Source: Streptomyces sp. RPA4-2
Lineage (GTDB): Bacteria; Actinomycetota; Actinomycetes; Streptomycetales; Streptomycetaceae
DNA length: 64,000 nucleotides
Direction: 5' to 3'
Assembly: GCF_012273515.2 (NCBI RefSeq)
Contig: NZ_CP050975.2
Span: forward strand, 2,728,001 to 2,792,000
Each line of letters opens with the position of its first letter. Position 1 is the first letter of the stretch. Under the pieces are notes generated by a model. The model searched no databases, had not been told where the DNA came from, and saw only the letters and a program-made list of their open reading frames with translations. This document shows, in pieces, positions 16,460 through 19,569 of this stretch. Made by a program: the position numbers and the translations under genes.

Positions 16460-17821
16460 TCAGACCGCGGGCACGCAGCGACCGCCCTCGGTCCGGTAGC
16501 GCCACTGCGCACCGTCCCGCACGAGCTCCTTCACGGCGCGCACGAAGCGCTCCACGTGCTCGTCCGGGGTGCCCGCCCCGAAGCTGACGCGGATCGCGTT
16601 GAGGGACGTCTCGCCGGGCGCGGCCTCCGGGGCCCCGCACTCGCCCTGGGTCTGCGGGTCGCTGCCGAGCAGCGTGCGCAGCAGCGGGTGCGCGCAGAAG
16701 AGGCCGTCGCGCACCCCGATGCCGTACTCGGCGGAGAGCGCCGCCGCGAAGTGCGAGCTGTTCCAGCCCTCGACGACGAACGAGATGACGCCGACCCGGG
16801 GCGCGTCGTCGCCGAACAGGGAGAGCACGCGCACGGCGGGCACCTCGGCGAGTCCTTCCCGGACCGTGCGGATCAGGTGCCGCTCGCGGGCGACGATCCG
16901 GTCGAAGCCCTCCTCGGTGAGCGCCTTGCAGGCGGAGGCGATGGAGTAGGCGCCGATGACGTTGGGAGAGCCGGCCTCGTGCCGTGCCGCGCCCTCGTGC
17001 CACTCGACGTCGACGCCGCCGTCCGCGCGCCGGGCGACCTTGCGGCTGGCACCGCCGCCGGCGAGGTAGGGCTCGGCCGCGCGCAGCCAGTCGGAGCGGC
17101 CGGCGAGGACACCTGAGCCGAAGGGCGCGTACAGCTTGTGCCCGGAGAAGGCGACCCAGTCGACGCCGAGGTCGCCGACGGACACCGGGTGGTGCGGGGC
17201 GAGCTGGGCGGCGTCCAGGACGATCCGGGCGCCGTGGGCGTGCGCGGCGGCGGCGAGCTCGCGCACCGGCCACAGCTCGCCGGTGACGTTGGAGGCGCCG
17301 GTGACGCAGACGAGGGCCGGTCCGTGGGGGTCGCGGTCGGCGAGGGCGCGCTCCAGGGTCGCGACGGCCCCCCGCGGGGTGCGGGGCGCGTCGAGGTAGG
17401 TGACGCGCGCGTCCTGCCAGGGCAGCAGCGAGGCGTGGTGCTCGGTCTCGAACACGAAGACCTGGCAGTCGGCCGGGAGGGCGGCGGCGAGCAGGTTGAG
17501 CGAGTCGGTCGTCGACCGGGTGAAGACGACCTGGTCGTCCTCGCGGCAGTCCAGGAACTCCGCGACGGTCCTGCGGGCGTTCTCGAAGAGGTCGGTGGAC
17601 AGCTGGGAGAGGTAGCCGGCTCCGCGGTGCACGCTGCCGTAGTACGGGGCGTACGCGGCGACGTCGTCCCAGACGCGCTGGAGGGCCGGGGCGCTGGCGG
17701 CGTAGTCGAGGGCGGCGTAGGTGACCTCGCCGCCGGTGACGAGCGGGACGGTCACATCACGGCCCAGAACAGGCAGCGGGGCACATACGGACTGGTCGGC
17801 GGCAGCGGTGGAGACAGACAT
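16460..17821 (-). CDS. SufS/CsdA-like class-V aminotransferase (putative cysteine desulfurase)
   Basis: 453 aa fold-type I PLP enzyme. The PLP lysine lies in AFSGHKLYAPFG, and the cofactor-binding His/Asp region is ETEHHASLLPW and VLDAAQLAPHHP. Cys in RDGLFCAHPLL aligns with the catalytic Cys of SufS (RAGHHCAQP type), so persulfide chemistry is possible. ATG 17821 has AGGAG 8 nt upstream. The gene is preceded by a SAM-IV riboswitch (18,007-18,123), which points to sulfur or methionine metabolism. It is not next to suf or isc genes. A second desulfurase, fused to TusA, lies at 29.4 kb. Substrate not proven by sequence. Confidence 0.85.
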   Translation of the reverse strand: MSVSTAAADQSVCAPLPVLGRDVTVPLVTGGEVTYAALDYAASAPALQRVWDDVAAYAPYYGSVHRGAGYLSQLSTDLFENARRTVAEFLDCREDDQVVFTRSTTDSLNLLAAALPADCQVFVFETEHHASLLPWQDARVTYLDAPRTPRGAVATLERALADRDPHGPALVCVTGASNVTGELWPVRELAAAAHAHGARIVLDAAQLAPHHPVSVGDLGVDWVAFSGHKLYAPFGSGVLAGRSDWLRAAEPYLAGGGASRKVARRADGGVDVEWHEGAARHEAGSPNVIGAYSIASACKALTEEGFDRIVARERHLIRTVREGLAEVPAVRVLSLFGDDAPRVGVISFVVEGWNSSHFAAALSAEYGIGVRDGLFCAHPLLRTLLGSDPQTQGECGAPEAAPGETSLNAIRVSFGAGTPDEHVERFVRAVKELVRDGAQWRYRTEGGRCVPAV

Positions 17822-17942
17822 GGCGCACTCCTGTGAGAGGCAGGCGGAAGCACCGCGCGGGGCGGGGGCGTACGGAGGTACGCGCGCGCGGCCGGGCGCA
17901 GGTGAGGGTGAAAAGGGGTGTGCGGCGGCGGGGCTCTACGCC

Positions 17943-17963
17943 CTAGCGCATTCGCTTGCTCAC
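17943..17963 (-). CDS. Six-codon leader ORF downstream of the SAM-IV riboswitch
   Basis: GTG at 17963 opens the reading frame MSKRMR-stop. GAGGGAG lies 6 nt upstream (17970-17976), a better ribosome-binding site than many real genes here have. The ribosome-binding site is inside one of two mutually exclusive helices of the riboswitch expression platform, so its translation may be the direct regulatory output. The leader ends 121 nt before the desulfurase start. Short length makes this a proposal rather than a proven gene. Confidence 0.45.
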   Translation of the reverse strand: MSKRMR

Positions 17964-17969
17964 AGAAGG

Positions 17970-18011
17970 CTCCCTCGAACGACCAGGACCCCTGGGATTC
18001 TCGAGGGGTCC
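17970..18011 (-). promoter_or_regulatory. Predicted SAM-IV expression platform with two competing helices
   Basis: Helix A pairs 18004-18011 with 17986-17993 (8 bp, GGACCCCT/AGGGGTCC, 10-nt loop). Helix B pairs 18001-18007 with 17972-17978 (7 bp, CCCTCGA/TCGAGGG) and buries the GAGGGAG ribosome-binding site at 17970-17976. The 5' arms overlap at 18004-18007, so only one helix can form. Helix A also uses the last five bases of the aptamer. Ligand binding could therefore decide between an open and a closed ribosome-binding site. No run of U follows, so termination is unlikely. Confidence 0.6.
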
Positions 18012-18123
18012 GCGCTTGCCGTAGACCTCGCTGCCTACGGCCTGGTCTTCACCCGGGGCACCCCGCCACGGACGGAGGGTTGCCGGACAGTAAGCCGGGG
18101 CCTGATGGCTGTCGCTCATGACC
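18007..18123 (-). promoter_or_regulatory. SAM-IV riboswitch aptamer
   Basis: Read on the minus strand, the aptamer opens with GGTCATGAGCGACAGC and contains CCCCGGCTTACTGTCCGGCA, ACCCTCC, GCGGGGTGCCCCGGGTGAAG and GACCAGG, and ends GGCAAGCGCGGACC. These match, block by block, my memory of the actinobacterial SAM-IV consensus, including the mycobacterial example. P1 pairs GGTCAT with the GTGAAGACC segment; a P5-type hairpin (CCGTAG/CTACGG) follows. It binds S-adenosylmethionine and, in this class, usually acts on translation. It lies upstream of the SufS-like gene. A covariance search with the Rfam SAM-IV model would settle it. Confidence 0.9.
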
Positions 18124-18218: not shown

Positions 18219-18420
18219 TGGGGGCTGCGCCCCCAGACCCCACCAGGGGCGCTGCGCCCCTGGACCCCCGCATCGCCCGAAGGGCTCGTCCTCAAACGCC
18301 GGACGGGCTGACATACATGCCCCGGCTTAGCACCATCAGCCCGTCCGGCGATTGAGGACAAGGCCGTTCAGGCCGACACGGGGGCCTGGGGGCGGGACCC
18401 CAGGCCTGGAGGGGAGGACG
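18219..18420. repeat. Dispersed intergenic repeat, inverted pair forming a long stem-loop
   Basis: The unit containing CGTCCTCAAACGCCGGACGG occurs here as an inverted pair: 18288-18310 pairs with 18337-18359 over 23 bp with one mismatch and a 26-nt loop. Flanking short hairpins (GGGGGCTGCGCCCCC, CAGGGGCGCTGCGCCCCTG and CTGGGGGCGGGACCCCAG types) add structure. Related single copies lie at about 41,345-41,425 and 63,780-63,860. The pair sits downstream of trpD and upstream of the riboswitch and may terminate trpD transcription. Confidence 0.8.
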
Positions 18421-18438: not shown

Positions 18439-19503
18439 CTACGCGTTGGTGGCCGTCACCCAGCGGTCCAGCGCGGCGCGCGCCGCGCCGGAGTCGATGG
18501 CCCGAGCCGTCTTCACCATCGCGGCGCTGAGCTGGTCCACCAGTGACGCGTCCGTCGGGGACAACGCCACCAGCGCCGCCGCCGCGTTCAGGACCACGGC
18601 GTCCCGTACGGGCCCCCTCTCGCCGTCCAGGACACGACGGGCGACCTCCGCGTTGTACGAGGCGTCGGCACCCCGCAGGGCCTCCACGGGCACGAGATCG
18701 AGGCCGACGTCCCGCGGGTCGAACCGCTCCTCGGTCACCTTGCCGTCCCGCACGACCCAGACCTTCGACGGCGCCGTGGTGGTCAGCTCGTCCAGCCCGT
18801 CGTCACCGCGGAAGACCAGCGAGGAGTTGCCGCGCTCGGCGAAGACACCGGCCATGATCGGCGCCATCCGGGCGTCGGCGACACCGACCGCCTGCGCCCT
18901 CACCCGCGCCGGGTTGGTCAGCGGGCCGAGGAAGTTGAAGACCGTCCGGATGCCCAACTGCCCGCGTGCCGCCGCTACATGACGCAGCGCCGGATGGAAC
19001 TTCACCGCGAAGCAGAAGGTGATCCCGGCCTCCTCGGCCACCTCCGCCACCCGCTTCGGGGTCAGCTCCAGATTGACGCCGAGCTTTCCCAGGACGTCCG
19101 AGGCACCGGACGCCGACGACGCGGCCCGGTTGCCGTGCTTGACGACCTTCGTGCCGGTCCCGGCCACCACGATCGACGACATCGTGGAGATGTTCACCGT
19201 CTTCGCGCCGTCACCGCCCGTACCGACGATGTCGACGGTCTCCCCCGGCACCTCGATCACCTTGGCGTGCTCGTACATCGTGCGGACCAGACCGGTGATC
19301 TCCTCGACCGTCTCGCCCTTGGCCCGCAGCGCCACCACGAAGCCGGCGATCTGCGCGTCCGTCGCCTCGCCGCTCATGATCCGGTCCATGGCCCAGGCCG
19401 TGTCGTCCGCGCTCTGGTCCCGGCCGTCGAGCAGGCCGTTCAGCACGGCGGGCCAGGAACGGCCCGCCGCGATGTCGCCTCCAGCGGGGGTCACAGCACT
19501 CAT
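18439..19503 (-). CDS. trpD: Anthranilate phosphoribosyltransferase
   Basis: 354 aa. It catalyses transfer of phosphoribose from PRPP to anthranilate, the second step of tryptophan synthesis. Visible family motifs are the PRPP/Mg loop [17 protein letters not shown] (about residue 90), [18 protein letters not shown], and [14 protein letters not shown] 19503 is preceded by AGGAG 7 nt upstream. No other trp gene is adjacent; trpD beside the qcr-cta cluster is a known actinobacterial arrangement. A strong terminator separates it from qcrB, so it probably has its own promoter in 19,504-19,569. Confidence 0.96.
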
Positions 19504-19569
19504 ATGCCGCTCCTGGGTTCGTAGACAGGTACAAGCAGGGTCCACCCTATCCAGCCCGGGCACGGCGAA

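Follow-up and report, generated by a model that had tools for sequence, protein, structure and literature searches.

A SAM-IV riboswitch ahead of a conserved six-codon open reading frame in Streptomyces: a candidate switch of leader translation in front of a SufS-like gene

Introduction

Riboswitches of the SAM-IV class sense S-adenosylmethionine (SAM), and their regulation is usually exerted at the level of translation. Riboswitches that act on an upstream open reading frame (uORF) are already known, and two such systems have been described in Mycobacterium tuberculosis. The available part of one report describes the Mbox-Rv1805A element of pe20 as a translational platform on a conserved uORF combined with Rho-dependent premature termination (PMC12810186). 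In AdoB12-uPPE2-PPE2, as far as the accessible portion of the second report describes it, the ligand hides the Shine-Dalgarno (SD) sequence of a uORF whose translation is needed downstream (PMC11260477). A further point of comparison is provided by the actinobacterial leader peptides (NF042934, cis_reg_atten; PMC1262725, available part), which are short ORFs preceding sulfur-related genes.

The locus considered here lies in Streptomyces sp. RPA4-2, within a stretch of 64,000 nucleotides that was analysed as a whole (the window; contig NZ_CP050975.2, positions 2,728,001 to 2,792,000), and consists of a SAM-IV aptamer, a six-codon mini-ORF and a gene for a SufS-like enzyme. It resembles Mbox-Rv1805A, as presented in the accessible part of that work, in placing a riboswitch on a conserved upstream ORF, with a role for Rho here only presumed; it differs in ligand class (SAM-IV), in the length of the ORF (six codons, where the Mycobacterium uORFs are longer) and in the host, Streptomyces. 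Similarly, uPPE2 is coupled to its gene through an overlapping AUGA according to the portion of that study at hand, whereas the two ORFs here are separated by 33-292 nt. The arrangement is like that of the actinobacterial leader peptides in having a short ORF before a sulfur-related gene, but MSKRMR, the peptide encoded, lacks Cys and, at six residues, is too short for the NF042934 family scan. It also departs from the usual RF00634 layout, since the SD nearest to the switch belongs to the mini-ORF and not to the enzyme gene.

A sequence-only reading of this region had judged a riboswitch acting through a leader ORF to be unusual, a view that holds but must be tempered by the two M. tuberculosis precedents; what is new is the combination of SAM-IV, Streptomyces and six codons. 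A literature search with the peptide string gave no match, and no announcement of a SAM-IV mini-ORF was found in literature judged mostly without full texts. In its available part, a reannotation of S. lividans lists this SAM-IV element and eight leader peptides, none of them for the enzyme gene. We propose, with about an even chance of being right, that the element is an OFF switch acting directly on translation initiation at the mini-ORF, which would protect the transcript for the SufS-like gene.

The SAM-IV aptamer and the enzyme gene

The aptamer predicted on the minus strand at 18007-18123 was borne out by a covariance match to RF00634 (109.2 bits against a gathering score of 38; E 3.2e-19) that covers the full model (positions 1-116), and no second Rfam match above threshold besides SAM-IV was found in the window. 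By this match the element is a putative SAM binder. PK-2, which sits at the 3' end of the SAM-IV aptamer according to the available part of a published description (PMC6890682), is seen in the window as a GUCCGU/GCGGAC pairing between the P3 loop and the 3' end; its 3' arm (18008-18013, minus strand) has four bases in common with helix A, described below. The PK-2 loop and arm strings could be tabulated in 152 of 162 located leaders, the pairing being judged by eye. The source genome contains one further SAM-IV copy (L082, 7405201-7405347). In the interval that separates the SAM-IV leader from an ORF at 18439-19563, an inverted repeat (CGCCGGACGGGCTGA ... TCAGCCCGTCCGGCG, window 18297-18350) resembles a bidirectional terminator by eye, and the terminator scan made no call there.

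The enzyme gene (16460-17821, minus strand) is preceded by its own SD, AGGAG (17828-17832, minus strand), and its product has a class-V aminotransferase fold (PF00266, 250.8 bits). The earlier description of this product as SufS-like is well founded: it is related to cysteine desulfurases, which are among its PDB matches, yet its score against TIGR01979 (sufS) is 249.5 bits, far under the cut-off of 475.1, and it is therefore termed SufS-like and not SufS.

A six-codon mini-ORF conserved across the genus

The SD GAGGGAG (17970-17976, minus strand) is followed, after a 6-nt spacer that is also found in 60 of 69 pattern-matched leaders, by the mini-ORF GTG AGC AAG CGA ATG CGC TAG (17943-17963, minus strand, with the start GTG at 17963-17961), which encodes MSKRMR or, in literal translation, VSKRMR*. 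The stop codon ends at 17943 and the ATG of the enzyme gene stands at 17821, so that the gap amounts to 121 nt; SD, start codon and gap had all been placed correctly from the sequence.

Conservation in relatives had been suggested as a check, and the mini-ORF proved to be present in 174 of the 181 genomes sampled from the genus, its position behind SAM-IV being verified in 162. In four of the remaining genomes the same SD serves the enzyme gene itself, and the other three lack SAM-IV. Of 197 genomes from the order, 162 contain the core of the mini-ORF, GCGAATGCGNTAGGGC, each as a single copy, and all 162 carriers are among the 181 that belong to the window's genus; a reversed control gave a single match overall, which excludes chance as the source of the core. 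By this pattern, extra copies of the mini-ORF elsewhere in the genome were considered and rejected, as each carrier has one core match. By pattern, 148 of the 162 genomes have the core behind the SAM-IV 3' end, and coordinates place it there in G127 and G035 as well. The exact core is missing from 19 members of the genus, of which three have no SAM-IV, twelve have a variant mini-ORF and four are of the direct type. In a sample of the class, the core was present in 24 of 296 genomes, which represent one genus of 114. Two further genera of the family have related forms, namely a mini-ORF with a TTG start (L087) and one with an ATG start encoding MRKRMR (L090); at L085, L086 and L088, from a distant family, the enzyme is present and the mini-ORF absent.

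Altogether, 167 leaders were read. Their loci were chosen by protein similarity (L001-L080, of which 69 of the 80 orthologous loci fit the strict mini-ORF pattern), to cover genomes without the exact core (L111-L126) or as the best-scoring part of a longer list (L129-L188), and a few rows represent one genome twice (L087/L181, L094/L187). A mini-ORF was recognized in 157, seven leaders are of the direct type and three are neither. The 157 consist of 152 located by the pattern xTG, CGN, ATG, stop, four more, and one diverged case (L116); the five of the 167 leaders not located by pattern were inspected individually, as were the 10 misses among the 162.

Among 144 unique leaders, conservation climbs at the start codon and drops past the third base after the stop. 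The first base of the start codon is G in 139, A in three and T in two of them, CGAATG and TAG show zero changes, and the wobble position of codon 6 varies (A 94, T 26, C 23, G 1) with its first two bases kept in 98%. Over the 152 leaders, the start is GTG in 146, TTG in three and ATG in three, and the stop is invariably TAG. Codon 4 is CGA in all 152, the search pattern having required CGN and not the A, and codon 6 is CGA in 98, CGT in 26, CGC in 23 and CGG in none, CGG being found there in at least four other genomes. For comparison, the enzyme genes of L001-L080 contain 2573 Arg codons, of which 1.2% are CGA and 36.4% are CGG. Finally, the diverged mini-ORF of L116 (MSQHMP*) retains the start, six codons, Met5 and the stop despite its changed sequence.

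Coding would account for the exchange of start codons and the freedom of the wobble position, and both support translation of the mini-ORF; the constant CGA would need a further cause, for example slow decoding or avoidance of structure. On this constancy, which goes beyond what coding needs, and on the unchanged CGAATG and TAG, one could base the view that the island of conservation merely resembles an ORF and is really an RNA element or a binding site for a protein. We regard this as very improbable, because the first base of the start is only ever G, A or T, the wobble of codon 6 is free, the SD and its spacing are kept, and L116 preserves start, length, Met5 and stop in a different sequence.

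Competing helices between aptamer and mini-ORF

The sequence-only reading had described two helices with overlapping 5' arms in the linker behind the aptamer, and both are found on the minus strand where it placed them. Helix A joins GGACCCCU (18004-18011) to AGGGGUCC (17986-17993) by 8/8 Watson-Crick pairs, and helix B joins the anti-SD CCCUCGA (18001-18007) to UCGAGGG (17972-17978), which includes GAGGG of the SD, by 7/7 pairs. A third complementarity, helix C, absent from that first reading, may add an anti-P1 element: its 5' arm GACCAGG (18041-18047, minus strand) includes the 3' strand of P1, and its 3' arm CCUGGUC (17981-17987, minus strand) is the best match in the linker.

Covariation, which had likewise been proposed as a check, was observed for helix A and not for helix B. 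The helix A segment is present in 139 of the 152 mini-ORF leaders, twelve others having a short linker without it and one lacking an anchor. In the 139, with anchored arms, position 4 is C-G in 106, U-A in 16, U-G in 15 and mismatched in two, and mean pairing reaches 7.78 of 8 within leaders as compared with 7.66 when arms are swapped, 0 of 2000 swaps attaining the within-leader value; when the 3' arm was picked by complementarity, 0 of 2000 shuffles were likewise as good. Since relatedness alone can exceed such shuffles, the exchange between C-G and U-A is the stronger point for helix A. For helix B, an uninterrupted run of four or more pairs is present in 112 of the 114 unique leaders, and one of five or more in 88; the longest helix shows no excess over swapped arms (5.53 within leaders against 5.54), and the energy is -10.64 against -10.37 (sd 0.12), some swaps being lower. 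All seven pairs of helix C are standard in 131 of 149 leaders, with a pairing of 6.87 against 5.36 for permuted letters (both as best match in the linker); being nearly invariant, helix C displays complementarity without covariation.

The helix A hairpin is missing from L003, L014, L028, L040, L046, L053, L055, L067, L072, L123, L136 and L157, i.e. 12 of the 152 mini-ORF leaders, and the pair of helices A and B is thus not obligatory. In these leaders PK-2 lies a few bases from the SD, which suggests either direct steric control or that control has been lost.

Predicted folding was computed without pseudoknots. The minimum free energy structure (MFE) of the free full leader, at -100.2, includes helix B. 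With P1 imposed and the PK-2 arm kept from pairing, the GAGGG of the SD was 0.00 unpaired, so that a hidden ribosome-binding site stands as a prediction for a leader with P1 held and PK-2 engaged. Forcing helix A gave -98.1, a cost of 2.1 kcal/mol, with GAGGG 0.07-0.49 unpaired, and forcing helix C gave -92.4 with GAGGG 0.11-0.40 unpaired. In a transcript cut off at 17980, short of the SD, the pair probability of helix A was 0.82-1.0, and helix A should accordingly be the first to form during transcription. As GAGGG is mostly paired under either forced helix, the folding model yields no cleanly open SD; the closed state is credible in these predictions, and the open state would be the weaker half of the switch model.

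A proposed OFF switch acting through the mini-ORF

In most Streptomyces sampled, the ribosome-binding site behind the aptamer belongs to the mini-ORF and not to the enzyme gene, and the switch therefore probably gates translation of the mini-ORF. SAM would thus decide whether the mini-ORF is translated and thereby control the enzyme gene, as the sequence-only reading had supposed. With SAM bound, P1 and PK-2 would hold the 3' end of the aptamer, blocking helices A and C, and the freed CCCUCGA could pair with the SD of the mini-ORF in helix B. Without SAM, helix A would arise as the RNA emerges and trap the anti-SD, helix C would compete with P1, and the SD would be free for translation of MSKRMR. 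Ribosomes on the mini-ORF would then prevent an early end of the transcript in the C-rich leader, allowing expression of the SufS-like gene; with the SD hidden by SAM, transcription of this leader would stop early, probably through Rho, the most tentative element of the scheme. Several points count against such an OFF switch: helix B is without covariation, the MFE already has helix B, 12 of 152 leaders have no hairpin, and a six-codon ORF shields little RNA.

The sequence behind the mini-ORF is consistent with termination of this kind. A C-rich, G-poor tract (17883-17942, minus strand) is, by composition, a candidate Rho-loading region; like the invariant rare CGA codon, it is absent from the sequence-only reading. 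Its C minus G fraction of 0.25 places it in the top 1.8% when both strands of the window are divided into 60-nt stretches, the corresponding tract lies within its own top 5% in 64 of 77 loci, and in the 144 unique leaders the 60 nt past the stop contain on average 47% C and 23% G. No intrinsic terminator (GC hairpin plus U run) was found between 17600 and 18400 of the window, a likeness to the actinobacterial leader peptides as the available part of their description has it (PMC1262725), and the same interval contains no sigma-70-like site. In the MFE, a small hairpin D, GGGC-GUAGA-GCCC (17931-17943, minus strand), opens with the final base of the stop codon. A perfect 4-nt complement to its GGGC follows within 18 nt in 133 of the 144 unique leaders; the MFE pairs the whole of GGGC in this way in just 71, the partners elsewhere lying further downstream. 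A predicted hairpin F of variable sequence (17851-17904, minus strand) recurs in many of the leaders inspected; it was rejected as an essential part, as it is not predicted in several short leaders. RNAalifold gave no useful consensus for the inter-ORF region, because its length differs between leaders.

The same region bears on an unlikely alternative, in which SAM gates the mini-ORF but the coupling is translational, with terminating ribosomes reloading on the enzyme SD or unmasking it. This SD is predicted to be partly closed (median unpaired 0.21 against 0.41 for 10 window genes), which suits purely translational coupling, and B12-uPPE2-PPE2 of M. tuberculosis offers a precedent in the accessible part of its report (PMC11260477). 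However, the stop of the mini-ORF and the enzyme start are 33-292 nt apart (median 102; 152 leaders) with no preference of frame, unlike the overlapping AUGA of uPPE2, and the enzyme has an SD-like motif of its own before its candidate start in 152 of 152 leaders. Frame linkage or fusion of the two ORFs was also considered and rejected, the distances modulo 3 being even (49, 53 and 50 of 152).

The polarity of the coupling may be argued from leaders of the direct type, in which the SD of the switch stands on the enzyme gene itself (L017, L091, L104, L120, L122, L125, L126). Since one and the same SD belongs to the enzyme gene in certain relatives and to the mini-ORF elsewhere, both targets should respond alike, each allowing enzyme expression at low SAM, and translation of the mini-ORF would therefore favour the enzyme gene. 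This makes it highly unlikely, the least probable of the readings weighed, that the mini-ORF is an inhibitory uORF repressing the enzyme gene with SAM as inducer: uMetE2, which represses MetE in M. tuberculosis, sets a precedent in the portion of that study at hand (PMC11260477), but the direct-type relatives would then respond in the opposite sense. A quick, midpoint-rooted tree of the enzyme proteins (105 sequences) requires the leader to have changed three times between the mini-ORF type and the rest; six direct types lie near its base, and L017 (S. flaveus) falls among mini-ORF leaders at an open fork with support 83. In L120, L122, L125 and L126 the enzyme starts at the SD of the switch and has a longer and variable N-terminal extension. 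In keeping with an early end of the transcript, the available part of a study of S. clavuligerus describes premature transcription units, one of which covers the SAM-IV leader of a gene named as aminotransferase class V and shows a drop of reads into the gene that is among the most extreme (PMC8269248); orthology is here presumed from gene name and SAM-IV, and such 3' ends could also result from processing.

SAM-IV and leader peptides at other loci

A third way of reading the mini-ORF is as a sensor, in which ribosome pausing on CGA-AUG-CGA-UAG would report the supply of Met- or Arg-tRNA, so that the leader would integrate SAM with the state of aminoacyl-tRNA like an attenuator leader peptide. 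The codon usage described above speaks for it, with CGA at codon 4 in 152/152 and at codon 6 in 98/152 leaders against 1.2% of the enzyme-gene Arg codons, as does the retention of Met5 in the diverged MSQHMP*. It also gains from 21 other SAM-IV loci, i.e. those not before the aminotransferase (L082, L083, L092, L093, L095-L103, L105-L110, L127, L128; three more SAM-IV matches excluded, genomes unevenly sampled), since 18 of them have a different leader-peptide-like ORF behind the aptamer, with a motif like RRHIDLLRVSSALC. These 18 are 17 loci, in two of which the script detected no SD-like motif, and L105; Cys occurs in 16 of the 18 ORFs, the exceptions being L082, from the source genome, and L110, and all four ORFs tested reach the cut-off of NCBIfam NF042934 ('putative leader peptide'). 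Against the sensor stand the single Met codon, which would make it a weak one, the possibility that A-rich codons near the start persist just to avoid structure, and the window leader's having no intrinsic terminator; taken alone, it appears distinctly unlikely. In four cases, SAM-IV copies form back-to-back pairs, one copy on each strand with about 87-180 bases between them, and apparently serve divergent genes (L092/L097, L096/L108, L099/L106 and G108:C1:3688669-3688980).

Combined with the switch, the sensor becomes part of a two-input device, in which the aptamer would open a mini-ORF that in turn reports a second signal, and the gene would be expressed only under a joint shortage of SAM and the matching aminoacyl-tRNA. 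The second signal would be Met- or Arg-tRNA here, and at the other SAM-IV copies would come from a leader peptide mostly containing Cys. This seems possible, if doubtful.

Conclusions and perspectives

The six-codon mini-ORF is, to our knowledge, among the shortest conserved ORFs. With 174 of 181 genomes, it represents a compact, genus-wide case in which a riboswitch appears to act via a very short conserved ORF, and the recurrence of SAM-IV before leader peptides merits a separate study. Streptomyces has good genetics, and this system could be used to test how six codons decide the fate of a transcript, to show why an invariant rare CGA codon stays in place, and to establish whether SAM-IV works together with leader peptides as a combined sensor.
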